DNA of 64,000 bases from Cylindrotheca closterium. Lineage: Eukaryota; Bacillariophyta; Bacillariophyceae; Bacillariales; Bacillariaceae. Under the pieces are notes generated by a model. The model had not been told where the DNA came from and ran no database searches. It was given only the letters and a program-made list of their open reading frames with translations. Where the stretch lies: contig CAKOGP040000025.1 of the NCBI GenBank assembly GCA_933822405.4, forward strand, positions 30,282 through 94,281, in the 5' to 3' direction. Positions within the stretch are counted from its first letter, which is position 1. Each line of letters begins with the position of its first letter. The position numbers and the translations under genes are program-made. Shown in pieces: positions 12,476-39,686 of this stretch.

Positions 12476-15400
12476 TCAATTTTTTAAAACTGGAAGGGCT
12501 TCTAAACTGCTTTCAACCTTCTTTGCTTGATCTTCAAGCTCAGCAAGCTCCGCCTTTGCTTTGTCAACGACAGTTAGAGGGGCTTTATCGACAAAGCCCT
12601 TGGACTGCAGTCTACCAGAGAGCTTTTTTATTTCACTTTCCAGTTTTTCTTGCTGCTTTTGCAGTCTCTTTCTTTCCTTCTCGGGATCGATGAGCCCAGA
12701 GAGTGGCAAAAATGCCTCCACGCCATCTTGAACAACAAGTTGAACAGAGTCTTCCGACACAGCAGCCTTTGCTTCGTCACTTCCCGCTTCACAGACACTG
12801 ACGCTCTCTGGATCCAACTTTGCCAATGCAACAAGAGACTTCAATTCCTTTTCTAGTTCAGCCTTCAAATCACCTGAGGCAACAACGACAGCGCTAATGC
12901 GCTTCCCTGGTTCGACATTGTACTCAGCGCGGGCATTACGAATACTTCTGGTAAGAGCCTGGAAACACTCGAAGGAACTAACAGCTTCTTGACTCGTCAC
13001 CAAGGGGTTGTTGTCATCCATCTGTGGCCAGTCTGAAAGCATAAGAGCGTGCGCTGCTTGTTCATCCGAAGCAGATGACCGTGGGAGATGGTGCCAAAGC
13101 TGCTCGGTCACATACGGCATGTACGGATGCAACAAGCGAAGACTTGTATCAAGAATGTAAACTAGAACACGGCGCGCTGCCTTGGCTTCGTCTTCGTCGC
13201 CACCACCAAGGCCTTCGTATAGTCGTGTTTTCGAAATTTCGATATACCAATCGGCGTACTGATCCCATAAAAACTCATATACCTTACTTCCTGCAGCACC
13301 AAGCTGATAATTCTCAATGTCAGCAGTGACTGATTTCACCAAGTCATGACATTTGGATATAATGTATCTTTCTGGAAGTGAAAGACTCTGAAATTCATCT
13401 TCTGTGATGGGCCCTGAAACTCCTAGTTCATTCAGTTCGGCCTTCTCAACATCCTTTAAGGCATTGCCAGTCACAAATTTACAGCAGTTCCAGAGCTTGT
13501 TCGCAAAATTTCGGTTCGCTTCAATCTTTTCCATGTTCAGAGGAATGTCCTATGGTCACACCTTTGTTAGGAATGACGGAAGATTGTAAGAAATGTTTTG
13601 GCTCGAAGCTTACCTGGCCAGGAGTTACACCTGTAACTAGAGAATAACGGAGACTATCTGCGCCAAATTTTGCCACAGTATCCAACGGATCGAGAACATT
13701 TCCCTTCGTCTTTGACATTTTGCTTCCATCGGCAGCCCGCACTAGACCATGCAAGTAAACCACGCTAAACGGGCTCTTGCCAGTCAATTCAATACCCATC
13801 ATTACCATGCGAGCAACCCAGAAAAATAGAATATCGTATCCTGTCTCCAAACATGTACCAGGGTAGAAGCGTGATAAGTCCGAACCCTCTACACCCTCTG
13901 ATGCTGGCCACCCAACTGTAGCAAAAGGCCAGAGTCCAGAACTGAACCAAGTATCCAAGACATCTTCCTCTTGCCGCAGAACAACATCATCCGAAAATCC
14001 CTGCTCGATAGCCTTCTCGCGAGCTTCTGCCTCATTGCGGGCCACGATGTAGTCTGATTCCCCTGATTCGCCAACGTACCAGACAGGGATTCGGTGTCCC
14101 CACCAAAGTTGACGAGAAATACACCAATCGTGGATATCGGTAAGCCAATTGTTCCAAATCTTGTCAAAGCGCTGAGGAACAATTTTGATATCACCACTCT
14201 CGACAGCCTTTAGCGCTTTTGCCCCCATTCCTTCCGTCTTGACAAACCATTGACTGCTTACGAGGGGTTCAATCACCTCCCCACCACGTTGCGATCTGGG
14301 TACTCGTTGCATGTGGGGGTCGACCTTGATTGTAAGTGTCAACTCCTCCATATCTTGCCACAGCTTTTCACGAGCTTCAAAGCGATCCAAACCGTTGTAG
14401 ATTCCGGCATTTGCATTCAAACTTCCATCCTTGTTCATGATATTGATGATCGGGAGGTCATACTTCTTTCCGATGGCGTAGTCATTGGGATCATGACCAG
14501 GAGTAATCTTCAGCGCACCAGTTCCAAACTCCATATCCACGTAGTCATCGGCAATAATCGGAATAGTGCGTCCGTCTCCCATTGGAACAAGAGCTTTCTT
14601 TCCAACAAAATCTTGATAGCGCTTATCATCAGGGTGTACGCAAACCGCTGTATCGCCCATGATTGTCTCTGGTCGAGTAGTGGCGACAGGCAAATAATCT
14701 TCCAAAGCCATGTATGAGAAAAAGAGATCCAAAGATTCGTTTGACACGGTCACCCTTAATCTTACCATCACTTCCTTCCACCATGTATTTGAAGTAGTAC
14801 AGTTTACCCTCTTCTTCGGAGTATTCGACTTCGAGGTCACTGACTGCTGTTTTCAATAGGGGCGCCCAATTCACCATATACTCGCCTCTGTAAACCAGGC
14901 CTTTCTCATGAAGCCGAACAAAAGCCTCCGTGACAGCTATGCTCAAGTCGGAATCCATTGTAAATCGTTCTCTAGTCCAATCTGCGGAGGCCCCAAGCGA
15001 ACGCAACTGCTTCGTTATGTGTCCACCTTGTTCTGTTTTATACTCCCATACTCGTTCTAAGAATTTTTCGCGACCTACGTCTTCTCTCGTTGTTCCCTCG
15101 GCAATTAAAAGCTTTTCAACTTGCAGTTGGGTGGCAATCCCGGCATGGTCCGTCCCTATCGAGAAAAGGATTAGCATATGCACCGTACAAGAAAAGCAGG
15201 GGCAAAACATGTATGTGGTACGCACCAGGCAACCAAAGTACAGGGCGGCCTCTCATGCGGTGGAATCTGGCCAAAACATCTTGCAAAGCAACGAAAATGG
15301 CATGACCCATATGCAAACGCCCAGTGACGTTTGGCGGAGGCATTGGTAATACATAAGGCTCCTTTTCGCCATTGGGCTTTTGTTTGGCATCTGGCTGAAA

Positions 15401-19681: not shown

Positions 19682-22600
19682 TCAGAAAAAGTGTTTTTTC
19701 TGAAGGATACTCGGAGTCTGTGAAGGTAGTTGGACAGAATCAATAAGCTCACCAAGCACCTTCAGCGCCTCTGATCTATCGAATGTTTCACGTCGCTCAT
19801 ACTTTCGGATGCTCTTGGTCTTCATTTTTGAATCTTTAGAAGCAGACCGAGCTCTACGCAATGACAGCTTGTAGATTCCTTTCAGACGTTTCAGGTGCTC
19901 ATGCATTCCACAAAAATCCTTGACGTCATCATGAGCAAAAATTATTCTCTGCAAGAGAGATACGGAGAGGCAGAAGATCCCGTCTTTGTCACGGAACATC
20001 TGCACTTTGTCAAGGAAGACTTCTGCAGATTTACAATCAGCAAATCCAGTCAAAAGTGAAGTGTGTTGGCCAACATTCTCGAGGGTCAGAAGAATCCAGT
20101 GCACCAACTCCACGTGGGGCAAGCTGCGGTTGCATGCTCGAATTAAGTCAAGCAGAATCTTCGCCGCATTTGCATTCGTAAAAACCTCGCAACATTTTTC
20201 TGAAAACCGCGTCGCTGACTCAAGGGTTTTCACTGCATCCATTATTTCTGCTAGGCTTGTGCTTGCTTGCAGAATTGCTAAGGCAATGCTTGTTCTGCAA
20301 CCCAGGCTTTGCGTCGGGTCATCTTGAGCCCGCTTGTTTGCACGATGAACTCTATGAGCTACGTTGGTAATCACCTTTGTCCTTTTTTGCCTTGTGACAC
20401 GAGCTCGAAACGCAGCTTGCAAGCGAACTGTGGCTCGCGTGAGCATATTTGCTCGCCACCGCGCCAAGTATTCACGGAAGCAAACCTGAATTGTTCTCGC
20501 GGCCCCTGACATTCTCCGTTTACAGACATGTGTTCGATACTGTTTTTGAATGACAGAAGCCTTGCAGTTACGATTGAGTTGTAACCTCTCATAGGTCTTC
20601 TCTACAACGTATCTGCGTACGCAGGACTGTATTTTGAGTGTGGAATGAAGCATGCATGTAAACTCAACATTCTGATCGAAACCACGCCAAATTCTTTGAA
20701 TTTCAGTTGCAGCATAATGCTCAATTTCAACATTTAATCTCGTACACAACCCTCTTGTCATTCGTTGCACCTCCACAGCAGCCCATTTCTGGACACCAAA
20801 TATGCTGCGACCTAAGTACGATCGATATGCAGCTTGTATTTTAGTGGCAGCTTCTCTCAACTTCCGCACGTGGTCCCTTACTGCGTATCCTCGAGTATAG
20901 GATTGTATCTTCAACACACAATGATACTTTTTTTCGTATGTCTTCATTACAAGATACCTTCGTACCTGGGCTTGCATCGAAAGCACCGACATCACTTGCA
21001 CAAGAAAATCAATATGAGTAACAAAGCAACGCCATGTCTTTTGAATCTTCCTCGCTGCAATATGTCTGGATACTCTTTTGCGGGTCACATACCCCCTCCA
21101 TAACGACTGTATCTGACTACTGCTGTGACTTTTTCGATAGGAAAGGGACCGCTCCCTTCTGCGACTGTGAAGTTGTCGTCTAGCGACAACCAAGCGAGCA
21201 AAGCTCTGCATGATAATGACAGCTGAAAACGTCCCTGCAAGGTTTCTGACTGCTATCGATCTGCGTGCGAGACTTTGGGCAATTATTACGCCTCGCTGTT
21301 GGTCCATGAATGTTTTTGTAGCTGCGAAACCACGAAATGTAGATTGAATTTGGACCGCTGCAATATGTTGAGAATGGATATGTTCCCGTGACTTGTATCC
21401 TCGGTAGACTGATTGGAGCTTGCATACCATTGCATTCTGTGATTCCTGAATCTTCATTTCTCTTCGACGGACAAAAACAACTTTTTGGCTTGCTCTCTTG
21501 CGGGCAACAGACTGTATCTTCATTGCAGCACACTCCCGCTTCATTAGCATTTGCTTTACGAGCCATCGACGTCCCATGCTCTGGATTGTGATTACGTCGA
21601 CTACATCAACGCTATAGCATACCCTAGCCACGAATCCACGGAACGCTGCCTGTATGATGGAAGCTTGAGTGTGATATATTGATAGGCTAGATCTGACTGC
21701 AATGCCACGGACACGAGATTGCACTTTCAAGGCTGCAAGATATTGCCTCTTTCGCGTATGAAGGACACAAAAGCGACGAACCACACTTTGCGCTGTGATC
21801 ACATCCCCGACAAGTGCTCTGTATCTGATGCATGCTGCGAAGCACCTCCATTGCGATTGTATGACGACTGCATTCATGTGATCGTGTACAAACCTAGTTC
21901 GACATTGAGACGATCGAAAAACTGACTGCAATGTAAGTATTCCATTCCGAAAGCTTTGGTATCTACATTGAGCTGCTTGGCTTCTCCACCATGTCTGCAA
22001 AACAACAGAAATACTTATATACTTCTGATAGCTCCTCTGCTGCAGCCATCGACGCGACAAAGCCTAAGATGAATCCAATTGAGTTTCGTGACCCATTGAA
22101 GCACAATGCCCGAAAGATATTGAAACAACATACCTGAATGGAGACCATCGCTTTGTGATATACCATATGCTCAAGCTGCACTCTCTGAAGTCTTCCCAGT
22201 TCCTGCACAGCCAGAAAGGATCTTGACGCATGCTGTATCTTATGAATTGAAAGTCTACGATGATTTGCAGCTCTCTTCGCCAGATATCTTCGGACTGCGC
22301 CCTGAACAAAAATTATCTCGAGAACATCTAAGGTAAATTCTCTTTTCGCAAAAAATGAACGCCAAGAGCTTTGGATGACCGTCGATGCAAAATGTTCTTT
22401 CTCTAGAGCAACTCTTGCACTGAAACCACGCCAGTACCTTTGTATGGACTCAACAGCAGCAAATGAATGACGAATCACCAGTGTGATAGAATGTGCTCTC
22501 CATGTTTTCTGAATCACAATTGCCGACACATTGATCCGCATATTCCATGTATGATCCCTCCAAACAGACTGAATTCTGGCAGCGCTCTGATTCCATGAAA

Positions 22601-25600
22601 ATATTTTCCGGCGGACATTTAAGCCTCGCAAAAGAGCTTGACACGAGACTACTGTCGATCTTAAAAGACAGTAGGAGACAGTCTGAGTATATTTCCTCCA
22701 CTGACTCTGAATGATTGACGCAGCAATATATTTGTGTCGCAAGGTAGCCGATCTGCCAAGGGACAGCCAAGAACGAATAGCGCATTGACAGGTTATTGCA
22801 GCTTCCACGTAACGGAAATGGATCTTTAGACGCATCCTTGCTAACCAACACCTTGCTACGCTCTGTATTTTTGCTAGAGCATTCGTCATGGCACAGCGCC
22901 GTTTTAAAGCGAGACTTCTCCTGGCAAGGCTTTGAATTGTTATAATGTCCAGTATGATCGTTTGAAACTCAACATGAAGAGAAAAGCCTCGCCAGGCACT
23001 TTGAATTGCAATGGCAGCTCGATCGTTTGCCTCTTCCTCCTCGAGAATTCTTCGCACAAGTTCCGATCTTGCAAGCGAACCTCGCCATAAACTTTGTATA
23101 GCGGTTGCCGCCCACCGAACTTGCCAATTTTGAACAAAGTTCCACCATGCCTTTTGTAAGATTGACGCAGCGATCTCCTGCCGCTTTATCTGTCTCCTTG
23201 CTAAATCACCTCTTGCATATCTCTGGATCGTCCGCACAGCATTTATTTGACGCGCATATATATAAAGGCTCGCAAATCTTCTCCATATGGATTGCACAAG
23301 AGTGGCTGAGTTGCGTTGCAAGCGTAGTTGTTTTGTCCGGCGTACAACTAGAAATCTTTGATAGCCCACTTGAATCATGATAGCAGCACTCTGTTTCCTA
23401 AGCAATTGACTATGTAGTTTTCTTCCTTGCGTGCCTCGAAAGACACGCTGAACAGAAGTCGAGGAATCAGTCAGACTGTGGGTGGCATAAAACAACAATC
23501 ACAATATCCAAACCTACCTGGATAATCCGTACTGCGGAAAGCATCCCCTCTTTTCGCTCTCTCGCTTTCTTCAGCCGAAGTAAGCTTTCCCAGTTTGCAA
23601 GAGCAAAAGACTCAACCATTGCAACAGATTGGGAGTACCGTCTTCTTTGCGAGTCGAAATACTTGTCCTTGTAGCGTTTCCAAACCCAAAAAATTGTCAA
23701 TGCAGCTTCTCGCTTCCGTTCAAGGAGCATCTTTTGATTGTACTTTCGGTAGCATTGTTGGATCAAGATCGAAGCAAAAATTTCAGTGCTGGACTCCATC
23801 AGACGGGAACAAAGATATGTTAAGCATAGCAACATGGACTCTTCATCAGGGGGGTTCATTGAATCACAATACGGGAGCATCTTTGGAATCCCACCTAAGT
23901 CTGATGCTCTTTGTGATGCCAAGATGGAATTCATTCTTTCGTTACGCATAGCACTTTCTGAGGAGAGATTCTCATTATCAAGCGATGTAGGCATAATTTC
24001 ATCCAGTCGAATGACACTAGGATGGTAGTAGTGGATGAGATAGCAAAGAGCTCTACCATCAGCAAAAGAAGTTGTGAAGTTTAGCAGCTTCAACCCAAAA
24101 GTGGAGCACACCGCCTGTGACCATCGAAGCAACAGACTCGCCAATACCTCTTTCGGGTCTGTACCAACCAAACAAACGTTCTGTCCTGCTTTTTCGTTCT
24201 GACGAAACAAAAGCTGACCTTGGATCTTTCGCCTGGCTAGGTTAGTGCGCAGAACATTTTCGATTTCTCTTTCCACCAAGTCATCCTTTAGTAGCTTCCC
24301 CATACAGCTATGGGCAATGATTGACCACATGACCTTAAGCACCATTTCGCGATGGCCATCAACAATATGATGAGCATCGACATCCTTTGGAACAATTACA
24401 CCACGTTTTCGAAGTGAAACGAGCGCCAAATTCAAGTTATGTAGCTTCTGCAAGCGAGAAATTGGTGGAAGTCGCAGCTTGCACATAAGTGATTTCGCAG
24501 GCTGTGCCGTTGCGATTTCTGTAAGTCGAGTCAGACAAGTACCATCTCGTAGATCAGTCGCTAGATTGCGAACTCCGAGGTCCAGCTCATCTACAGGATC
24601 TTGCTTGTAGGTAACCTTCAGCCCAATTCTGGATAAATGTTTGATGAAGTCCCCTTCCGAGGACAGGCAAATCCTACAGAGTGCAAGCAAAACTTCTCTT
24701 GAAGACTTTACTTGGGAGCCCCTTACGAACAAACGAGGCACCTTGTCCAAAATGTTACACTTTTTTGCTTGATCGAGAAAGAAGATTAACAACATTATGC
24801 GATACAGCACAAGACTTCTCATCTCTGCGCGAAATTGCTTCTCAAAACGTCCAGAAGGAATCTTGCACTTCCCTTTGGTGTATTTTTTCAACACTGCTGT
24901 GTCAGATAAGATTCGGTTGACTATGAACTTTCCAAGAGACGGCCGTATTTGGCTAGGTTGCGCCTGAGACGGAGTGAACAAAACGTAAGGCACAGGCCCA
25001 TTCTTGGTATTCCATAGGAAAGGAACAAGGCACAAGTCTTACCTTCATGGACTCTTTGGGAGCATTTCCTACTTCGATAGATTCCCCATACATTACTTCA
25101 AGACCAAGACGAAGCCAAGGCGCTGAGTACGACTGCAACAATGTGGTGACTTGGCGTCGCAACGTCAAATCGTAGTATAGATCTCGGTCTGATCGAATGG
25201 AGAGACGCCCTTTGCCAATCTCATCGTGAATTGTAGCCTTTAGTTTTTCCATCTGATCCCCATAGAACACCCCCGATGCTTTCATGCGTAATTGCGACTG
25301 CCGACGATGAACAAGCAGCATTCTCAAACCGGCACAGCTTGGTGATCTTCCACTTTCATCCAGTTCTTTCTCTTCATCAGCTTCTCCTGAAGATATGGTG
25401 TAGTTTATCCATTTGACGAATGTATTGGATTGCTTTTCTGCCCAATCATTCACGTGGCTTTCACTGCATGACTTGGAAGATACCAATGGGTTTACATTAT
25501 CAAATGTAGCCCCATGTTTGGGGGTGGCCATTGCGGCATATTTTCCCGACATTCTATCAATTGTGTCAGTCTTTGCAACTCGCGAAGAGGTTCTCTTCAT

Positions 25601-27427
25601 TCTTGGCCTGCCAATTTCTTCTGTCGCCTTCTTTCGACAATCGAGTGTTGACGACCGAGGAATGCGGCTTTGATCGACGTGTGAAGGCATGGAGTGGTTC
25701 TGGCGAGGCCTATTTCGTTGCGCATTTCTGGAAACTCGAGTATTCGTGGTCTCAACGAGTACTCGTCCGTTTTGCGCCTTCTCGCCAATGATCTGATGAT
25801 CTCTTCCTCCTGTACTTTTTCTTTGTCCACCGGTAGAGGCCGATAGAGTAAATGAATGCCCCAAGGTGCGTGACGCCAAACAGTCAGATTGAGATTTCAA
25901 GAAATTCTTCGACGCGCTTCCAGTTGGATTCGATTTCTTGATGCTCCTTGACTCGGCACCATCACCAGTCTTTGTCATGTTTTTGGGAGACTTCTTCGAC
26001 GAGTGTCGCAAACGCTCCACCAAATGAGGCGGCGGTGATCTCTTGGTCTTTGATACCGAAAATAGATGCGTGAAATCCATCAGCCCACTTCCATTCGTCT
26101 TGGCGTCTGCGTTGATCTCTTTCTCTTCTACCTCTGCACTACCGTCATGATACTGCGTAACGACAGTTGACACGCTTTCCGTTGGAGGTTGAGTCTCTCT
26201 GGTTGACGACTCTTTCGTTACAGACTTCGCCTTCGGAACTGGTCTCTTTTGCCTGTCTACGGACTTGGTTCCATCCACGGAGGAATCGTTTGAAGATCTG
26301 ATGGACCGATGCTTAAGCCGATGAAGCAAGTGAGTTGGAGGTCCTGTCGCAGCTTTCTTCGAACTTGAAAACATATGTGAATAATCCATGAGACCTGTCT
26401 CTCGTTCGGTTGAATTCTCTCTGGGAGTGTAGATATCGCTTAGTTGCTCGATTTCTACTTTTTCCGTTGCATTTTGGTTGATGGATGAATCTTCTTTAGT
26501 TAAATGACGGACATCAGTACTTCGTAGAAGAAGAGCCTTCATATCGTTTGGCGTCTTGAGTTGTGGAGAAGTCTTGAATAAATTTGTACGCACAACAGGA
26601 GTATCACAGACATCATTTGTCGAAGCAACGGTCTCGGCGTCTTGGAGACTAAACCATGGACTCTTGGTATCCGATGCCGAATCGGCAGAAGAAACTGGAG
26701 ATGAAGGTTTCCTGTTGCTCAGTTTCTTCACCGTCGAGATTGCTAACTTTCTTGGTTGCAATGGGGGCGAAAAGAACGGCGATTTGTCATCCATCTTTTG
26801 ATCTCTCCCTTCCTTGAATTTTCTTGCAGAAAGTGTTTCGTGTATTTGAGTGGCAACGTGGGGAGAAACCACCACTAACCTAGTGCTGTTTGTTTCTAGA
26901 CGATTCCACAGAGCGTCAGGTGGTGGCGAAACAAGAAAGCTTTCCTCTTCCATGGAATCATCCTCCTCCATTTCACTCCGAAGAAGGGATTTAGGAGTCT
27001 TCGGTACTACACGCTGAGGTGGACCGAGAGCCGTGGAAATAATTTTGCCAGTAGATCCATTCGTTGCGTATCGTGACCGCAAGACCCCGCCAGACGGAGA
27101 TCCAAGACGTCGTCCAGCAAGCAGCCTTGAGCCGCCACCGTTTCCTCTCAAACTTTGACGAAAAGATTGTACACTTGTGGGTACTGATAAACTGTTTTGA
27201 TTTTCTTTCGACTTTGCAAACGCCACACTTTTCGTAGCGCTCTTGGTTGGGTTTGTCGAAGTCGCTCCTTGTTCGTAGGCTTCTTTGCTAGAAGTGGTCT
27301 TGAGGGACTGTCGAAATGCTTGCATCGGAGTCTGACGGTTGTGAGGAGTCAAGGGTTTGCGGGAGCGAAGTGTTCCATGTCCACCAGGAGTACGGTCATT
27401 GATATCGGCATCTCTGTAGATTTCCAT
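19682..27427 (-). CDS. ASPM: ASPM-type spindle-pole protein (CH domains plus IQ array), 4 exons
   Basis: Exons 27427-25043, 24963-23518, 23447-22134 and 22063-19682 join in phase 0 to 2,508 residues. Introns are 79, 70 and 70 nt. Residues 1-795 are basic and disordered, with a duplicated motif LMDxxHxFSxSK...PPxHLxxRLxH (about 345-380 and 448-480) and two QxFRQSL motifs. Calponin-homology domains lie near residues 876-1016 and 1071-1183. From ~1190 to ~2290 there is a very long array of IQ motifs (IQxxWRxxxxR type) expected to bind calmodulin light chains. The last ~220 residues are helical, like the ASPM C-terminal ARM-like region. This order matches ASPM/Asp, which focuses spindle microtubule minus ends. 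A class of IQ-rich myosin-like protein is excluded by the absence of a motor. Intron acceptors were picked so that IQ motifs continue across them. Confidence 0.93.
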
Positions 27428-27762
27428 CTTGAGAAATCGGTGCGGTGTATTCCTCTTCGAATCGAAGAGTAACGGTCAATTTTCCTATTTATATGTGTAC
27501 TATGGATTCTGTGTCTTCGTCGAGTTCAGAAATGAAAGTGGGCAAACGATGTGCCTTCGTTCTCTTTCAACACACACGGATCGCGCGAAAAGTTGAATTT
27601 CAAACTTTTATTCAAATTTATTCATGTATGAGTATAGCATTCAAAATCAATTGTACGTACGCGAATCCTTCAAAATCAAAGCATTTGATCGACAAAGCAT
27701 CACCACAACAAGCCAAAGCTGTTCACCATACGAGATTTGTTCGATACCGGTACCAGAACAAC
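27428..27762. promoter_or_regulatory. Bidirectional promoter region, ASPM / CPAP-like
   Basis: 335 bp separate the two start codons. The region is A/T-rich toward the CPAP-like gene and contains an E2F-type site at 27583-27590. A GGTACC-containing patch lies at ~27746-27757. Confidence 0.6.
27583..27590. promoter_or_regulatory. Candidate E2F/DP binding site
   Basis: GCGCGAAA (TTTCGCGC on the other strand) is an exact match to the E2F consensus TTTSSCGC. It lies 156 bp upstream of the ASPM start and 173 bp upstream of the CPAP-like start, which suits cell-cycle control of both genes. An eight-base match alone is weak. Its position between two mitotic genes is what makes it notable. Confidence 0.45.
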
Positions 27763-29610
27763 ATGCCGGAAACGAAATTATTCTCTTCTCCTCTAAGCTA
27801 CTCCTGTTCAGCATCTTCAACACAGAGACCAAAGTCACCTCCACCACCTCCGTCTACCCAAAAGAGGGACGAGAGCGGCATGCAGACACCATCTATTCTG
27901 TGGCGAGCATCAGAGATTGGATCACCACAACCACAAAATGGTGACATTCAACAGTTGCTTCACTACATCGACAATCTTTCGTTTTCGTCGGAAGCGATCG
28001 ACAATGAACACTCTCTATATGTCCCAGAACAAGAAAATAAGTTGGCAAAACATGAGAACACCTCCTTTCAGAGTCCAAAGGCTTCTGTATTGCAGAATCG
28101 TTCCACGAATCATTCGAAGAAACATAATTCATACCATGATGTTATTGTCAAGGCACAAAGGTTCCCTGATTTAACGCCTATTCGAAGTAAACCGAGCCCC
28201 TTACGTTCGCCTCCCTCCGCGAAAAGCAGCTGCCGATTGGATCCAGTAGGTGCCACCCCGCTAAAGGCAAAGGAAAACCTACTTAACGAAGCCAGCCGTT
28301 ATATCTACACTCGAGAAGAGGAACCTATCGGGAACTCACCTATGCGCTTAAGCGAAAGGCACCTCTTTCAGTCTAGTAGACATTATCTGAGTGATGAAGA
28401 AAGTAGCGCCAGTAGCTTGATCCCTCACGGACAATTGGAGACGAATCGGGCATCTTCTTCCTTTTTTGCAACAAAAGCGAACGAATACCACAACAAAAGC
28501 TTGCTTCCCACTCCCTCACGACAAAGGCATAGGCCAGAACCAGAAGCAAGCCCAAGAAAGGCTCTTGAAGCTTCTCTGGAGCACAGCATTGACGAGGCAT
28601 GGTCAATTGTCCTGGGCTCAACTATCATCGAAGAAAGTGATGCCGAAGATGAAAAGAAACAGGTACAATCGACGACAGCAACGAATCAGGACCACTTGGT
28701 TCAAGGGCCAGCGACACCAGGTATCAGCCGAAGCGGCAGAATCCTGGATGATTTGCCAGACAAGGTGAAATCCCCGGAGGATGCTAAAAAACTACTTCGC
28801 ACGGCTGTCCATACATTGCAAGATGCAAGAGCGGAAAGAGAGTCAGCACGACAGTGGGCTACAGGCATGAAAGATGCTGTACACAAGTGGGTCGAGCAGC
28901 AGCGTGAGTTGATGAAAGCAGAATCTAGTGTCACTCAGTCCAGGGCTTGGCAGCAATCCCAATTACAGTCTCTGTCGAACTTGGAAGGCTCGATTCAAAA
29001 TCTTTGTCAGGAAGTTCACAGCTCGAATCAACAGCGGACATCAACAGAGGAAAAGCTTCACAAGCTCCTCGTTGATCAGCGAGAAAAGATCCAGTCCATG
29101 GCGGAAGAAGTCTTGTCTATGAAGCAGCAGATTCAACAAATGGACCAGCAAGTTACTCAACCAGAAAAGACAAATACTCCAACACGCAAAAAGAAAGGCA
29201 AAGTGACGTCAAATTCAAGCTCCAAATTAAAGCTGGAAACTCCGAGTCGCTCGACGGCATCATCAACGGCTTCTTCTCGCGTCCGGAAAGAAGGGAAAGA
29301 TGGTGGTCATATCATTCTATATGGGAATGGAGTGCGAAAAGAAGTTCACAAAGATGGGACTACAGTTATTCGCTTTACGAATGGCGACGTCGAAACCAAG
29401 TTTTCTGGCGGAACAACAGCTTACTTTCATGCAAAAGATCGAGTCATGCAGATCAACAACACGGCTGACGGGTCAACGCTTTTCGAGTATCCCAACCGTC
29501 AGATTGAGCGTCACTACAGGGACGGTAGCAAAGCAATTCTGTTTGCTGATGGTACGAGACATCGTATTTCTGCGCAAGAAAAAATGGACACAGCATTTGT
29601 GAAAGCATAA
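27763..29610 (+). CDS. CPAP/SAS-4-like protein with C-terminal TCP10 (G-box) domain
   Basis: 615 residues from the ATG at 27763. The frame is open further upstream to 27445, but that part reads as A/T-rich non-coding sequence and would leave almost no promoter. The first ~330 residues are disordered and Ser/Pro-rich. A coiled coil spans about residues 330-470 (DAKKLLRTAVHTLQDARAERESA..., EEKLHKLLVDQREKIQSMAEEV). The C-terminal ~95 residues are the TCP10/G-box beta repeat: GVRKEVHKDGTTVIRFTNGDVETKF, then DGSTLFEYPNRQIERHYRDGSKAILFADGT. This domain marks CPAP/CENPJ/SAS-4 and relatives, which bind STIL/Ana2 and build centrioles and pericentriolar material. Other CPAP motifs (tubulin-binding PN2-3) are not evident. 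It sits head-to-head with ASPM. Confidence 0.82.
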   Translation: MPETKLFSSPLSYSCSASSTQRPKSPPPPPSTQKRDESGMQTPSILWRASEIGSPQPQNGDIQQLLHYIDNLSFSSEAIDNEHSLYVPEQENKLAKHENTSFQSPKASVLQNRSTNHSKKHNSYHDVIVKAQRFPDLTPIRSKPSPLRSPPSAKSSCRLDPVGATPLKAKENLLNEASRYIYTREEEPIGNSPMRLSERHLFQSSRHYLSDEESSASSLIPHGQLETNRASSSFFATKANEYHNKSLLPTPSRQRHRPEPEASPRKALEASLEHSIDEAWSIVLGSTIIEESDAEDEKKQVQSTTATNQDHLVQGPATPGISRSGRILDDLPDKVKSPEDAKKLLRTAVHTLQDARAERESARQWATGMKDAVHKWVEQQRELMKAESSVTQSRAWQQSQLQSLSNLEGSIQNLCQEVHSSNQQRTSTEEKLHKLLVDQREKIQSMAEEVLSMKQQIQQMDQQVTQPEKTNTPTRKKKGKVTSNSSSKLKLETPSRSTASSTASSRVRKEGKDGGHIILYGNGVRKEVHKDGTTVIRFTNGDVETKFSGGTTAYFHAKDRVMQINNTADGSTLFEYPNRQIERHYRDGSKAILFADGTRHRISAQEKMDTAFVKA

Positions 29611-31832: not shown

Positions 31833-33899
31833 ATGTCTAGATCAGGCCAAGTCAAGAATCGAGCCCCAGCGCCAATCCAAATATCAGCGGAGCAAATCTT
31901 GCGTGAAGCTGCAGATCGTCAAGAGGCGCATACGGTCGACCCAGTGGTTCAAATTCATGACGCAGAGGAGTACCAGTCTTATCTTCGCGATCGGCGAAAG
32001 CATTTCGAAGATAACATTCGTTACAGAAGGGAGCATATTGGAAATTGGGTGAAATATGCGCGGCTAGAAGAAGAACACAAAGAGTTCGAGCGAACCCGCA
32101 GTATCTTTGAAAGAGCATTAGAGGTGGACGGTCGCTCTGGAGAGCTATGGTTGAGGTACGCTGAGTTTGAGATGAGAAACGAATTTGTGAATCATGCTCG
32201 CAACATTTTAGACAGAGCAATACAACTACTGCCGAGAGTTGACTTCTTGTGGTACAAATACGTGTATATGGAAGAACTAGTTCGTGACATACCGAAATGT
32301 AGAGCAATTTTTGAGCGTTGGATGAAGTGGATGCCAGATGATAACGCATGGCTGAGTTATGCGAGGTTCGAGACTCGCTGTGGCTCTCTTGATCGGGCAG
32401 AAGCGGTGATGAGAAGGTATGTCAATGCATATCCTTCAGCAAAAGCTTTCTTGAAATTTGCCAAGTGGGCAGAGTATGAGGCCAAGCACATTGATTTGGC
32501 GCGGTCGATTCTCGAAGCATGTCTGTCAGAATTAGAACCAGAAGAGTCAAGGCAAGCACATGTTTTCCAAAAGTTTGCTTTTTTTGAAGAGCGACAAGGA
32601 GAGTATGAGCGCGCTAGGGTGATCTACGAGCATGCGATAAAGCTATTGCATTTAGGCGAGGTCAAACCAATGGAACTGGATGACGATATATCTCAGTGGG
32701 AACAAAAAAGACGAGAAGAGCTTTATAAATCTTATCTAAGTTTTGAGAAAAAACATGGTGACAGAGAAGGGATTGAAAAAGTCCTGTTGGCAAAACAGCG
32801 AAAGCAGTACGATAACCGTGTCGAGAATAACCCGCACGATTACGACGCTTGGTTTGAATTTGCAAAACTAGAGGAGGATGCAGGAAACATATCCTCGGTC
32901 AGAGACGTTTACGAGCGTGCAGTTGCACAAGTACCACCTTCCACAAATAAAGACCATTGGAGGAGATACATTTATCTTTGGATATACTATGCAACATATG
33001 AAGAGCTCTCCAACCAAGACACCGATCGCGCATCGCAAATTTATCAGACATGCTTAAAAGTCATTCCTCACAAGGAATTTACCTTCGCCAAGATATGGAT
33101 TTACGCTGCCAAAGTTCATGTCCGGCGCAAGGATTTGGCAGCAGCGAGAAAGCTGCTTGGCAGGGCGATAGGACTGTGCGGGAAAGAACAAATTTTCACA
33201 GAATATATTGCGCTTGAACTATCTTTGGGGGAGATCGATCGTTGCAGAGCTCTATACAACAACTACCTCAAGTCCATGCCCCATAATTGTGTTGCCTGGT
33301 CAAAGTATGCGGAGCTTGAAACGTCACTTGGTGAGACCGAAAGATGCCGTGCAATCTTCGAGCTCGCCGTCACACAGCCAACACTGGACATGCCAGAGGT
33401 TTTGTGGAAAGGGTACATTGATTTTGAAATCAACGAAGGCGAAGGCGACCATGCTAGAAAATTGTACGAACGTCTTCTAGAGAAGACGTCGCATGTCAAG
33501 GTGTGGATATCATTTGGGCAATTTGAGGCAAGTGAGATCGGACAAGGAATGGGCATCGCTCGTTCAACTTTTCAAAAGGCATACGACCAGATTAAGAACC
33601 AAAACCTCAAGGAAGAGCGTGTGCTTCTCCTTGATGCATGGAGAGCTTTGGAACAAGACAGGGGGGATCTGGCGAGTGTGGAAAAAGTGGAGAAAATGTT
33701 ACCCCGTCGAATCAAGCGAAAACGAATGCGAAAGGATTCAGGGGGCAACGACTTGGGATGGGAAGAGTATTTCGACTACCAATTTCCAGATGAAGGCCAG
33801 TCGGGATCCTCGAATCTCAAAATCTTGGAAATGGCTGCGAAGTGGAAGAAGTCTGTGGTTGACAGCAGCGATGACTCAGATGACGAGATATCAGATTGA
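31833..33899 (+). CDS. CRNKL1: Crooked-neck-like splicing factor (CLF1/SYF3)
   Basis: A single exon of 688 residues. It begins with the family's conserved start (VKNRAPAPIQISAEQILREAADRQE). About 14 HAT (half-a-TPR) repeats follow, with recurring W..YA.FE..., A R.I.ERAL and WLRYAEFEMRN segments through residue ~610, then an acidic tail (SDDSDDEISD). CRNKL1/Clf1 is a scaffold of the Prp19-associated (NTC) complex needed for spliceosome activation. The length matches yeast and human orthologs. The in-frame region before 31833 lacks homology, so the ATG there is preferred. The stop is only 31 bp from the stop of the convergent PDZ gene. Confidence 0.96.
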   Translation: MSRSGQVKNRAPAPIQISAEQILREAADRQEAHTVDPVVQIHDAEEYQSYLRDRRKHFEDNIRYRREHIGNWVKYARLEEEHKEFERTRSIFERALEVDGRSGELWLRYAEFEMRNEFVNHARNILDRAIQLLPRVDFLWYKYVYMEELVRDIPKCRAIFERWMKWMPDDNAWLSYARFETRCGSLDRAEAVMRRYVNAYPSAKAFLKFAKWAEYEAKHIDLARSILEACLSELEPEESRQAHVFQKFAFFEERQGEYERARVIYEHAIKLLHLGEVKPMELDDDISQWEQKRREELYKSYLSFEKKHGDREGIEKVLLAKQRKQYDNRVENNPHDYDAWFEFAKLEEDAGNISSVRDVYERAVAQVPPSTNKDHWRRYIYLWIYYATYEELSNQDTDRASQIYQTCLKVIPHKEFTFAKIWIYAAKVHVRRKDLAAARKLLGRAIGLCGKEQIFTEYIALELSLGEIDRCRALYNNYLKSMPHNCVAWSKYAELETSLGETERCRAIFELAVTQPTLDMPEVLWKGYIDFEINEGEGDHARKLYERLLEKTSHVKVWISFGQFEASEIGQGMGIARSTFQKAYDQIKNQNLKEERVLLLDAWRALEQDRGDLASVEKVEKMLPRRIKRKRMRKDSGGNDLGWEEYFDYQFPDEGQSGSSNLKILEMAAKWKKSVVDSSDDSDDEISD

Positions 33900-33930: not shown

Positions 33931-36900
33931 TTACTGTAGTGATTGAACCCATATTTTTCGCTGATCGTCACAAAACATGACTTCAACACAACCTTGTGAC
34001 TTCCAGCTCCTATCCATTGCACTCAATACCATCTGTGGAGTGGCAAACGATGGGACAAACTCTCCATTTACAGCGTCTATGGATTGATGAAGCTTCTTTG
34101 TCTGCCGATCTTTCAATATCGCTGCTAGGGACTGGAAAGGTCCGGGTACTCCTTCGAGGTCCTTAACGACAACATCCGATGCATTGACTGTTTCGAGAAC
34201 CAGACCGAGCTGTTCGGGTGCGTCCGCCGCTACGCACACCGTCTCGGAGTTTTCCATCGTGATAGCAGTGGATTTTGGCCCACCACCACTAATCATTGCT
34301 GACCAGCCCTTATTATCGGCTCTATCACGCAAAGGGCGGGCAAAAGTCAGCCCTATCGGGTACTTTGAAGCATCCTTGATCATTCCTTCGACCTCTGCCA
34401 TGGTTGGATTCGAGCTCTCTCCAAGCCATCGACAACCAGCTCCGACGGAGCAACCGTTTACAAAAACCAAATAATCACCCAACAAAATACCGCTCTTTTC
34501 TGCGATCCCATCAACCTGCTTGAAACCAGTCAACGCGACTCGCTTCGTACCTTCGACTTTCTTTTCTTCAAGCTTGAGTTCTTCGGGACCTCCAATCTCT
34601 ATTCCAGAGCCCTCAGGCTTTTTGAAAGAAGCCCGGAACAAATAGGGATCTGAAAACTCAAGTGAAAGAGGGCGTTTGTGTCCTTCTTCTTGCAAGAGCT
34701 TCAATGCTTTCGACCTTCCAGCACCGTCAGCACCCAATACAGGGTTGCCATTCACACGGGTAAGTAAGTCACCCTCATTCAAATCCTCACAGCGCTCAGC
34801 AGCAGTGACCACACCATCGTCTCGGGGAATTAGCTGCCTGATAACTAGCCCAAAATTATCTGGCGCGTTTGCAAACTCGATACCTAAGTCTCCAAGCTCT
34901 GTAAACAGAACTTTTCTCGTAGAGAAGTTGCGCTCAACTGGCCCATCATCAACTTCCTCTGCTGATGCATCTTTTTTGCTCTTCGCAACGAAGTTTTTGA
35001 TTCTCTCTGCGTCTTCACTTTCGGCCAACTCGAATTGAATAGTCTTCGGCCGGCTTGGATCCTTCAACGCTTCGAACAAGTCATCGTCATTCTGATATCG
35101 AATTCCATTGACAGCCACAATGGTGGACCCTTTGAACAAGTTAGGATCAAGGTTCCGTTTTTCGCAAACGCTTCTGGCTTGACTTCCACGCGGAAAATCA
35201 ACAATCTTTAATTTTCCGCTTTCGTCATTCAGAAGAAGGTTCATTCCCAATGGGAGCCGCTCTCGCCATACTAGTTCGAGCAGATTAGTTTCTTTCTCAG
35301 GAATTGCCTCAATAATGTCGTCACGTGTTGCAATCTCCAATTCGCTTAACTCTAATTTTGCAGTTCTCAGAAGTACGTCCCAGAACGGACTTAGTCCTTC
35401 GTTGAGCTTCGAAAGGATCCAGCCACTCCTGTTTGAGATTATTTGAAGGATTGCTTTTACAACGTAATCTCTCAAAAGTCCTTTAAAAACCGACGCGACC
35501 TTGTTAATAACCCACGCAAGTTTAGACCCACCTTGCATGGAAAACTCAACAGAGCCAATGGTGCAGAGTCTATCATGCAGACACAAAACAGGCTCCCAGT
35601 CTTCTGGTTTGTATTCGTTCTGACCCTCTTCGATCCCTACTTTTAGGCGTTTTCTTAGCTCAAAGGAAAGGCGAATGGCGCCGCCCGACATCTTCACGTC
35701 AAACTTCCCATTTCCTTTCAAATAAGGCATGTACGTTTGCTCGAATCCCCACATGGCATGGTTAAATATCGCGGAAACCTGCTTGACATCAATGATCAAC
35801 AATTCTGTGGCATTGACAACAGCATTTTCATCTAAATGTGTGTCCAGATCCATCGATGAGCTAGTATTTCGAATATTTCGCCCTGTTGTGGTATCACCAC
35901 CCTCCGACGATTCGGCACCCGACTCCTTGGCACCATCAGCTTTCTTGGTCGCACGCATACCAGCAACCTCGACTAAGATGTTTTCTTTTGTGACTTTAAA
36001 ACCCTCCATTGAAAGGTTCGATATATGATATACTAAGCCATCCTTGACCCCATCCACTGGAGGTATAGGCATCGAAGGGAGGACTCGAAGAATGAAATCA
36101 AGGGCTGTATCTGTCGCATCAGATAGAAGTTTCTGTCTTGCTGCGTCATCATTGATCGCATTTCCTGCATTGTCCTAGAATACATCGTTAAAAGAGCAAC
36201 GCAATGATGTTTTTCAATGAGACCTAATACGTACCAAGAGTTCATTGACATCGATCTTTTCAATGCCTTCCATGACACTATCCTTTGTAATTCCCGCCTT
36301 TTCAGCAATCTGCAGAGCATCTTCGACCATTTTATTACCGGAGACACCTTCTATCACATCTAGTACTTGCTCACCCTGCTTGACAAGGTTTTCACCAGCA
36401 GCGACCACATTATCATCGTTGAGAATACCGACGACCTCATCCATAACTGCATTCACTGTCATCTCTCCAGAAATGATCTTTCGAACATGTTTCAAGACTC
36501 CCAGCATTGTCTCATCGGTCACAGATTCCTCTGCGGCGCCAAGCTGCTTTTCGATCTCATCGGCTGCTCGCTTTGCAATGGGTTCGAACAGTTTCGATGT
36601 TCCTCCTTCTCCTCTGGCAAGGGCAGCAATTTCTTCAGGTGCCATATGCTGACCTAAATGTGATTCTAACTCACAGAGAACTTGCTCCAACTTAAGAAGT
36701 GCTACGTCGCGGTACTCATTTCGATGTGAAAGGACGGAAATAAGGGATTCGTTCGCATCCTTGCTGGCGGAGTCAGCTTGGCCTTGGAGGAGCGTAAGCA
36801 TATCTTTTAATTGATCACCTGATTCCCCACCCTTCGATCTCGCTGTTGTTAAAGCTCCAGCAATGATACCATCCAGTCCTCCAAGTGATTCGCTTCTAAT

Positions 36901-38271
36901 TTCAATCGCTCGCACAAGACGGTCTCGCACCGACTCTCCTAACTCAATTGATTTCAGTCTCGCCACTGCAGCATCTCCTTCCGTGAAAGCTTTAGTGAAC
37001 TTTGATCCAATTTCCCCAGCCCACTGTAGCTGATCTTTTGAGAAAAGACTGGCTGCCCTAGCTTGGATACGGTTTGCACCTTCGAAGAAAAGACTGGCTG
37101 AGCGAGTTGACATGAGCCGTCCCGTCGCCTCCTGCCACTCAGCAGTTTGCTCATTCAAAGTGTCCAAAATCTTCGCTAGATTTCGATCTGATTTCGCAGC
37201 AGCTGAGAGTGAGTCGAACATTGTACTGAAGTTTTCTCCCAGGCTTTCCTTAATGCTGTCCAAGTCGCTTGGATCCACCTCAGCTTTCTTGAGAAGATCA
37301 TCTAAAGCCTCAAGTGCCATTTCTCTCGATTTTGTAATTGCTTCTGAATAAGGAGACTCTCTGAATTCTTCATCCATGACCACGCGAATGCCTGCATTTT
37401 CTAGAGCCGCTTCTGTCGCTTTTGGGATGTCTTTGTTGAGCAACTGTTCCAATCGTGCTTTCCCTTTTTCAAGAAGGAATGTTAGATCCTCGTCTTTAAT
37501 CATAGCCATCACTTGCTGGACTTCGTCTTCATTGACAGCCCCCTTGACTTGCGTTGCCAAGTTATCGACAGCACTTCCAATTACATCGTCGGGGATAACA
37601 GATGATGCCTGTGCCATCGCTTCAGCCGACTGCTTATGAGTATATTCTGAGGCCTTTCCCAGTACGTTGGTGACTTCATCCTTGTTGAGAAATTCGGTAG
37701 TTGCGCTAGCTGTTTGTTCTCCACGGCGTATCAATTCGACTAACAACGGATAAAACTTAGCACTAGGAGATGGAGACAAATCATTTGCAGAGACTGACTC
37801 CACATGGGCAGAAATTAGAGACGAATGTGGATCCGAAAGTATATGGCCACTCACAGAGAGTCGAGACAGTCTCTCTGAAGTAACGGTATCGTTGCTTTTG
37901 CTTGGATCTATATCTACTGCTGTCGAGTTTGTAGTATTTGCCGCGAGCTCATCGTTGTCCTCAAGAGCTCTGATCTGGTAAAGCTTGGTCGATGCATAAT
38001 AAGCCTGCACCATATACTTTCTCTTCGAAGGATCACCAGCTTTGATTGTAATCATTCCTGGGGCCACGGGCAATCTCCCCAAGATTGAATCCCGCTGGAT
38101 GTGTGCGGTACTCGACGAACCCATAGACTTGCCGGGAATACGCCAGAGCATGACTTTGAAGAAAGCCGATTCTTCCCCCGGACATGAGGCAATTACCCCA
38201 ACACCGAATGATGTCTCGACCACATCTCCAGGATTTAGTTCTTCCATCGCCATTCGCTTGAATGTGGCCAA
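33931..38271 (-). CDS. Large multi-PDZ protein of unknown function, 2 exons
   Basis: Exon 1 38271-36235 and exon 2 36174-33931 (60-nt intron, phase 0) give 1,426 residues. The N-terminal ~110 residues form a beta-rich module (LNPGDVVETSFGVGVIAS..., KYMVQAYYASTKLYQIRAL). Residues ~150-710 are almost entirely helical, with amphipathic repeats. Residues ~728-963 resemble a lipid-binding/TULIP-like fold by pattern (alternating hydrophobics, LNEGLSPFWDVLLRTAKLELSEL), but this is tentative. Four PDZ-like domains follow at about 983-1065, 1099-1188, 1198-1293 and 1316-1418, each with a GL/LG-[IL] carboxylate loop or DxL.xVNG core (GSTIVAVNG, GDLLTRVNG, GDYLVFVNG). I know no named family with this order. 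A membrane-associated scaffold is a guess. Confidence 0.85.
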
Positions 38272-38480: not shown

Positions 38481-39686
38481 ATGAGCCACAAGCCAAATGA
38501 AGGCGTCAAAGCTGCTGCCGTAATCTTCGACAGTGACCTTGTGAAATTATTGAACTCGGACGACATTCGTATTCCTACAAATTTTGTTGGAGTGAGACGG
38601 GTTCGACCGCACAAACTACTAGAGGAAAAGAGAAATAGTAACACTGTTCGAAATGAAAATACTGTTTTCACAGTAAAAGTTGCTAATGGCATCGGTCGTA
38701 GGATGACCAAACAAGAGAAGAAGAAAGAAAAGCAAAAGATGAAGCAGAAGCAGAAAGAGGATAGAAAGCGGCACCGACAGGAACAAATGGATTCGCCAAC
38801 CTCCATTCCATCAAACTTGAAGACTCCTAGCATCTATTCGTCGACTACAAACAGTCGCTATTTCCAAGTGGCTCTCAACAATACTGCGTTAGAACAAGAA
38901 CTTGCCGAGTTGCGTGGGGAGCGCAATGGCCTTCCTCCCGTTCTTTTATCGCCAGCAATGGCAATTCATGCCGAAACGATACTTTGGCCATCGTCTGGCT
39001 CGGGTCACATTGAACACAAGCTTCAATTTACCTACGATCACGAAATGTCGAAGAAATGGGCAGAGCTCTTGAAAGAGACTATGCGTCCGGCTGAAGCAAC
39101 TCGTGAAAAGGATAATAAAATCAGACCCATGCCGTACCAACTAACTCCAGAGCCATGGACTCGCCTTCGGCAGAATATGGGCCAACAGAAGTTGGAGTCC
39201 AACAGAGATGCGCAACATTTCAGCAGCCGTTGGGACCTCATGCCTTCAAAATGCAAATCAACGAGAATGATTTGTCGCCAACCAACCGAGACCGACCTTA
39301 TTGCTTCACTCGTATTCGAATACCTGTTCATGGAATCCAAGTACTACGTATCTTGTGGAGCCAAGTTTGGCTGTGATTTTCTTATCTACGATGGGCCGCG
39401 AGAAGAACGTCATGCGTTTGCTGGACTACGTATTTTGAAAGCAAAAGAAGGCCAACTGCCTATCCAGAGTGCTTTTAGTCTCTCTGGCTTCGTACGATGC
39501 CTCAATACAGCGGGAAAGTTTGCCTTGCTTGCCACCGTTGTTAGAGATGAAAAATGCGAGAACCCATTATACAGATTGGCATTTGTTGATATTGCATTAG
39601 AAAAAGTCCTAACAGCACCAACGCACAAGAAAAGGGCTAGAACACAAAAACGACGAGATGTTGCAAAAAATCTAGCTAAATTGTAA
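38481..39686 (+). CDS. tRNA-splicing endonuclease catalytic subunit (SEN34/SEN2 type)
   Basis: 401 residues. The C-terminal domain (about residues 270-360) is the tRNA-intron endonuclease fold: VFEYLFMESKYYVSCGAKFGCDFLIYDG...RHAFAGLRI...NTAGKFALLATVV. The catalytic triad can be read as Tyr (in KYYVS, ~287), His (RHAFAG, ~310) and Lys (AGKFALL, ~344), so the subunit should be active. The G-KFG-DFL-Y-G pattern is closer to SEN34 than to SEN2. The N-terminal half contains a Lys/Glu-rich helix (MTKQEKKKEKQKMKQKQKEDRKRHR) and a basic C-tail (KKRARTQKRRD), suggesting nuclear location. It would cut pre-tRNAs at intron borders together with other SEN subunits. Single exon. Confidence 0.85.
   Translation: MSHKPNEGVKAAAVIFDSDLVKLLNSDDIRIPTNFVGVRRVRPHKLLEEKRNSNTVRNENTVFTVKVANGIGRRMTKQEKKKEKQKMKQKQKEDRKRHRQEQMDSPTSIPSNLKTPSIYSSTTNSRYFQVALNNTALEQELAELRGERNGLPPVLLSPAMAIHAETILWPSSGSGHIEHKLQFTYDHEMSKKWAELLKETMRPAEATREKDNKIRPMPYQLTPEPWTRLRQNMGQQKLESNRDAQHFSSRWDLMPSKCKSTRMICRQPTETDLIASLVFEYLFMESKYYVSCGAKFGCDFLIYDGPREERHAFAGLRILKAKEGQLPIQSAFSLSGFVRCLNTAGKFALLATVVRDEKCENPLYRLAFVDIALEKVLTAPTHKKRARTQKRRDVAKNLAKL

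Follow-up and report, generated by a model that had tools for sequence, protein, structure and literature searches.

What binds an ASPM-like gene to a CPAP/SAS-4-type gene in a diatom, and what would a relative of CPAP, which is usually regarded as a centriole-building protein, do next to ASPM? The two genes lie head-to-head on a 64,000-nucleotide stretch of DNA (contig CAKOGP040000025.1; the whole stretch is referred to as the window), the ASPM-like gene on the minus strand and the CPAP-type gene on the plus strand, with 335 bp from ATG to ATG. Our best explanation, which we hold at about even confidence, is that they form a divergent pair on one bidirectional promoter with an E2F-type site, and that the CPAP-type protein acts at an acentriolar spindle pole. 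The features of the locus are as follows:

27428..27762, no strand assigned: spacer of 335 bp between the two start codons, putative bidirectional promoter
27583..27590, plus strand: E2F-type site GCGCGAAA (TTTCGCGC on the minus strand), TTTSSCGC class
27763..29610, plus strand: CPAP/SAS-4-type gene, 615 aa, with N-terminal short motifs, two long helices, and a C-terminal G-box/TCP domain (about residues 503-612)
25043..27427, minus strand: ASPM-like exon 1, N-terminal part, which contains the MD-x-[ST]-x-x-F motif twice and does not match the ASH domain
23518..24963, minus strand: ASPM-like exon 2, calponin-homology (CH) domains
22134..23447, minus strand: ASPM-like exon 3, IQ motifs (PF00612, E 1e-31 on 21963-23495)
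19682..22063, minus strand: ASPM-like exon 4, IQ motifs, C-terminal region, and stop (PF00612, E 1.7e-37 on 19682-22060)

Identity of the two genes

An earlier note on this DNA had proposed a divergent pair with a 335-bp gap, and this was confirmed, with both start codons backed by relatives. The start MEIY... of the ASPM-like protein is common to the homologs P0012, P0013, and P0015, and the N-terminus of the CPAP-type protein aligns with those of P0002 and P0004. The CPAP-type open frame can be extended to an ATG at 27493; this start was rejected because the first residues of the relatives fall on or close to the one encoded at 27763.

The CPAP-type protein matched PF07202 (Tcp10_C) with E 6.5e-13 and 48.5 bits against a cut-off of 36, and the best PDB sequence match of its G-box was CPAP (4bxp, E 1.3e-15). 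NCBIfam gave no match. The structural model had a mean predicted local distance difference test (pLDDT) score of 55.1, with blocks of residues 511-610 at 82-96 and 358 of the 615 residues below 50. When this model was compared to known structures by Foldseek, ranks 1-11 were all CPAP/Sas-4 TCP domains. The likeness to CPAP/CENPJ/SAS-4 (MCPH6) comprises the C-terminal single-sheet G-box, in which 36 of 99 aligned residues are identical to zebrafish CPAP, the long helices ahead of it (residues 338-386 and 390-464, mostly with pLDDT 77-96, which may pair as a coiled coil), and the retention of most tested STIL-contact residues. In contrast to CPAP, the window protein is shorter, the G-box match covers residues 10-109 of a zebrafish chain 192 residues long, and the gene resides in a diatom genome without recognised centriole markers.

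The gene at 27763 could also encode another Tcp10_C protein that is not the CPAP/SAS-4 ortholog. In line with this, the PDB sequence search at E up to 1 returned no CPAP match outside the G-box (the other hits were to mS43). This includes the N-terminal tubulin-binding PN2-3 segment, although a short divergent motif could escape such a search. A second Tcp10_C locus was not found in the genome (47.6 Mb, 572 contigs), in which two matches, both in this frame and neither above the cut-off alone, were obtained. Among the 10 CPAP-type relatives, two bear the source annotation centromere protein J (CENPJ), three are hypothetical, and the rest have no function name; a profile search with their alignment added one extra protein, P0011. 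The single locus, the CENPJ names, and the PDB and fold matches favour CPAP, as the earlier note had it, and we consider a different Tcp10_C protein improbable.

The ASPM-like gene consists of four exons with 2508 codons, and the spliced frame has no internal stop. Its three introns are phase-0 with GT-AG borders and measure 79, 70, and 70 bp. The region of exon 2 (23467-25035) matched PF00307 in two stretches (E 3e-18) and PF11971 (E 4.7e-9), and the CH domains are followed by many IQ motifs as in ASPM/abnormal spindle (MCPH5). Homologs from Seminavis to vertebrates are annotated as abnormal spindle-like (e.g., P0020, P0033, P0058, P0085, P0090, P0120, and P0130); many others among the best 120 of 210 homologs are nameless, hypothetical, or carry only a CH or IQ domain name. 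The domain order and these annotations agree with the assignment to ASPM that had been made before. Unlike ASPM/abnormal spindle, the window protein gave no match to the ASH domain when exon 1 was searched for PF15780 with an E limit of 1. We therefore named the gene ASPM-like and regard it as an ortholog by its CH-IQ body alone. PF15780 was also unlisted for the 55 best homologs (P0012-P0066), while the entries of many animals and of Triparma (P0072) do list it. The missing ASH domain looks like a lineage trait; to judge from these domain listings, the diatom line may have lost it.

The closest matches listed for the CH region were an MMETSP transcript (86% identity) and Cylindrotheca fusiformis (67%), followed by Nitzschia sp. 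Nitz4 (56%), Pseudo-nitzschia multistriata (55%), and three proteins of Nitzschia inconspicua (P0022, P0023, and P0049 with 52%, 51%, and 44%). Attheya (46%), Odontella (44%), and Triparma (43%) were farther away. The gradient is uneven, as the proteins of Seminavis robusta (P0058 and P0085 with 44% and 32%) and Epithemia (43%) were no closer than those of Attheya and Odontella. Cylindrotheca, Nitzschia, Pseudo-nitzschia, Seminavis, and Epithemia are raphid pennates. The host is hence most likely a raphid pennate diatom that is close to Cylindrotheca and Nitzschia. Having more than one distinct ASPM-type protein in Nitzschia inconspicua and Seminavis robusta, some diatoms may have duplicated ASPM.

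No second ASPM copy was found in the genome studied here, where the sole other match of the CH exon was a 70-bp stretch on contig C190. This stretch is an exact copy of ASPM coding sequence (window 24509-24440, L080:1514-1583), and its flanks of 100 bases on each side were identical at 22/100 and 25/100 positions in an ungapped comparison, which is the chance level. The copy is perhaps a templated insertion. At residues 347 and 450, the ASPM-like protein has a repeated MD-[YF]-[ST]-H-[ML]-F-S motif that is followed by PP-x-H-L-x-x-R-L. The looser form MD-x-[ST]-x-x-F occurs in one to three copies in P0012, P0013, P0015, and P0022 and is not present in P0018 and P0058. A docking function of this motif is possible.

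The spacer and its E2F-type site

The spacer has a GC content of 0.394 and harbors GCGCGAAA, with 155 bases between the site and the ASPM ATG and 172 bases between the site and the CPAP ATG. The earlier note had described an exact E2F palindrome at 27583-27590. The site was indeed present at this position, while the designation as a palindrome was rejected: GCGCGAAA is a half-consensus, and the actual palindrome is TCGCGCGA at 27581-27588. The full palindromic site TTTSGCGCSAAA is not in the window.

The same site class was found upstream of replication genes of the host. Within 335 bp of the start, a TTTSSCGC-class site was present in 5/11 assessable replication genes (MCM 2/8, RFC 2/2, PCNA 1/1) and in 0/19 controls (Fisher p 0.003). 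Extension to 500 bp resulted in 6/11 versus 0/19 (p 0.0008), and within 1 kb, two of the 19 controls had a site, at -526 and -647. One RFC promoter bears the full TTTGGCGCGAAA, and another MCM gene has two sites slightly beyond 500 bp. Altogether 13 replication genes were considered, with the MCM starts set by eye from open frames. RFC L067 was dropped since its start was not assigned; outside the count, it has TTTGGCGC at 0-based locus position 518. RFC L064 was unassessable with 341 of 500 upstream bases being N, and its inclusion would change the count to 5/12. The genes for DNA polymerase B and E2F/DP, whose starts were not assigned, stayed outside the promoter count. The controls were derived from 30 mitochondrial-carrier loci, of which three without a start were skipped and 27 were reduced to 19 distinct genes by the first ATG of the open frame.

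Genes with E2F/DP domains are present at three places in the genome. Since the replication promoters are enriched for the site class and E2F/DP genes are present, an E2F reading of the spacer site is reasonable, and the site class is meaningful in the host genome. According to the passages available from the respective studies, E2F1 serves as an S-phase marker in Phaeodactylum (PMC4392632), and E2F/DP controls centriole-duplication genes in C. elegans (PMC4777132). The system in C. elegans differs from the diatom locus: centrioles are present there, the relevant passage does not name sas-4, and the relevant passages do not mention a linkage to ASPM.

Divergent pairs with a shared bidirectional promoter likewise consist of head-to-head genes set a few hundred bases apart. 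The 335-bp promoter would drive both genes, and its E2F-type site would probably activate both around S phase. As far as the upstream sequences tell, co-regulation of the ASPM-like and the CPAP-type gene is plausible.

We also looked at the linkage of the two genes in relatives, as the earlier note had proposed to examine synteny. The homologs from C. fusiformis are scaffold381_cov138-Cylindrotheca_fusiformis.AAC.3 for ASPM (P0013) and scaffold381_cov138-Cylindrotheca_fusiformis.AAC.4 for the CPAP-type protein (P0006). If the final number reflects gene order, this suggests that the two are consecutive gene models on scaffold381; adjacency would thereby be retained, and orientation is not given by the names. 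No related loci were found in viral and genome contig collections. Literature searches, which left most subscription journals outside their coverage, gave nothing relevant on ASPM and CPAP paired head-to-head or with a bidirectional promoter, and the gene pair was not named in the titles and abstract openings retrieved.

The two genes may as well be plain neighbours that came together by chance in a compact genome, with ordinary gene-order conservation in C. fusiformis and a site that is incidental or serves a single gene. Several results weigh against a shared promoter and for this explanation. By itself the layout tells little, since divergent genes often lie close together in this genome: a divergent open reading frame of at least 150 aa lies within 1 kb upstream of 7/19 controls and 6/8 MCM genes, and within 335 bp in three of the 19 controls. 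The window itself contains a further divergent pair, 227 bp apart. The spacer holds a single E2F-type site, which was picked post hoc, and dinucleotide shuffles of the spacer produced TTTSSCGC in 3.25%, TTTSGCGC in 2.1%, and TTTCGCGC in 1.4% of the cases. Over the whole window, neither the TTTSSCGC class (11 observed, 8.3 expected) nor GCGCGAAA (3 observed, 1.8 expected) was clearly enriched, and six of the eight MCM promoters had no site within 335 bp. Judged by the ASPM region, the nearest relative with a name is C. fusiformis, in which the local gene order may simply be inherited. These arguments are opposed by the distribution of the site class between replication promoters and controls, and by an adjacency that outlasted the divergence of the CPAP-type proteins to about 50% identity. 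The head-to-head layout is ordinary in the host genome; the choice of these two partners is not. We give the plain-neighbour explanation a somewhat less than even chance.

The further divergent open frames are located at 36214-38253 (minus strand) and 38481-39686 (plus strand). The latter matched a tRNA intron endonuclease domain, and for the former Pfam returned no hit with E of 0.01 or below. The window also encodes a HAT/TPR-repeat protein resembling PRP39, Syf1/CRNKL1, and Suf (31833-33899, plus strand) and a class I aminoacyl-tRNA synthetase (12476-14768, minus strand), whose C-terminal arm is of the valyl type and which is encoded in two overlapping frames, probably with an intron.

Ligand pocket and centriole markers

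To our knowledge, centrioles are not known from raphid pennate diatoms, the most likely host group. A genome search with PF00091 revealed four loci, the best PDB matches of which were alpha-, beta-, and gamma-tubulin and FtsZ. Delta- or epsilon-tubulin was not among these four loci; no search with dedicated delta/epsilon models was made. The counts from the genome family searches are lower bounds, and the control genomes were prokaryotic. In a centric diatom, Thalassiosira, Pix and IFT are absent according to the part of the source available (PMC2582488). The earlier note had pointed to a joint role of the human orthologs of ASPM and CPAP at centrioles. With no delta/epsilon-tubulin among the PF00091 loci and no SAS-6, PACRG, or IFT57 above the cut-off, this framing probably does not carry over to the host. 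It looks as if the host had kept a CPAP relative next to ASPM, with no centriole kit that could be recognised.

Three of these negatives count less in favour of an acentriolar setting. PACRG and IFT57 gave sub-threshold hits in the genome in searches that had no eukaryote control, and the search for SAS-6_N, which gave no match, was uninformative, as the control of 14 prokaryotes was also silent.

The ligand pocket of the G-box was compared to that of zebrafish CPAP. In the part of the study available, mutants of F978, Y994, and F1015 show STIL binding decreased 20-40 fold, and E1021V decreases it about 8 fold, E1021 corresponding to the human microcephaly site E1235 (PMC3776556). In the 11 aligned CPAP-type proteins, Y994, E1021, and the contact Q1019 are identical throughout (11/11), the position of F978 is F in 10/11 and Y in 1/11, and that of F1015 is Y in 11/11, a conservative change. 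Other contacts speak against an intact pocket: Y996 is replaced by H and H1003 by Q in 11/11 proteins, and T1005 is variable. The alignment indicates that the pocket for STIL is mostly, not wholly, kept.

The CPAP-type protein has a proline-rich stretch at its own N-terminus, P23-K-S-P-P27-P-P29, which fits P-[RK]-x-x-P-x-P. P-K-x-x-P-x-P occurs near the N-terminus in five of the eight aligned proteins whose models reach the N-terminus, and it fits the STIL consensus PRxxPxP only if K replaces R. That this motif could be a self-ligand of the G-box is speculation.

The loss of centrioles could also have left the CPAP-type gene as a decaying relic with no role at the spindle pole. The centriole and cilium markers not found, within the limits of those searches, would fit a relic, as would the many model residues with pLDDT below 50 and the size of the protein; human CPAP is about twice as long as 615 aa. 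However, the frame is intact, the 11 aligned proteins show strong conservation of the G-box and of the helical segments, including runs of invariant columns, and the genome search yielded no second Tcp10_C locus. We regard decay as very unlikely.

ASPM has a role at microtubule minus ends. In the explanation we prefer, a divergent pair on one E2F-type promoter, ASPM would bundle these ends, and the CPAP-type protein would act beside it as a coiled-coil protein whose G-box grips a proline-rich ligand. Because canonical centriole markers were not found, we place this protein most likely at the acentriolar spindle pole, that is, at the microtubule centre or polar plate. From the locus we infer that E2F binds the site, that the two genes are co-expressed, that the CPAP-type protein is located at the pole and oligomerises, and that its G-box has such a ligand.

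A possible centriole-free role for CPAP

A bolder reading extends this explanation to the raphid diatoms as a group. They may have kept a stripped-down CPAP after the loss of centrioles and turned it into an acentriolar pole module with ASPM, in which a single bidirectional promoter under E2F control ties the two genes together. With no STIL in view, a protein at which no search was aimed, the G-box may then bind the protein's own N-terminal proline motif, so that CPAP would self-assemble into a pole instead of a cartwheel. We consider this reading doubtful as a whole.

More interesting about the locus is that a CPAP-type protein was retained in a genome in which centriole markers were not recognised. 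If the bolder reading were true, the partnership of ASPM and CPAP would be independent of the centriole. A conserved G-box protein with a mostly kept pocket, located beside ASPM in such a genome, provides a natural test of centriole-free roles of CPAP and ASPM.

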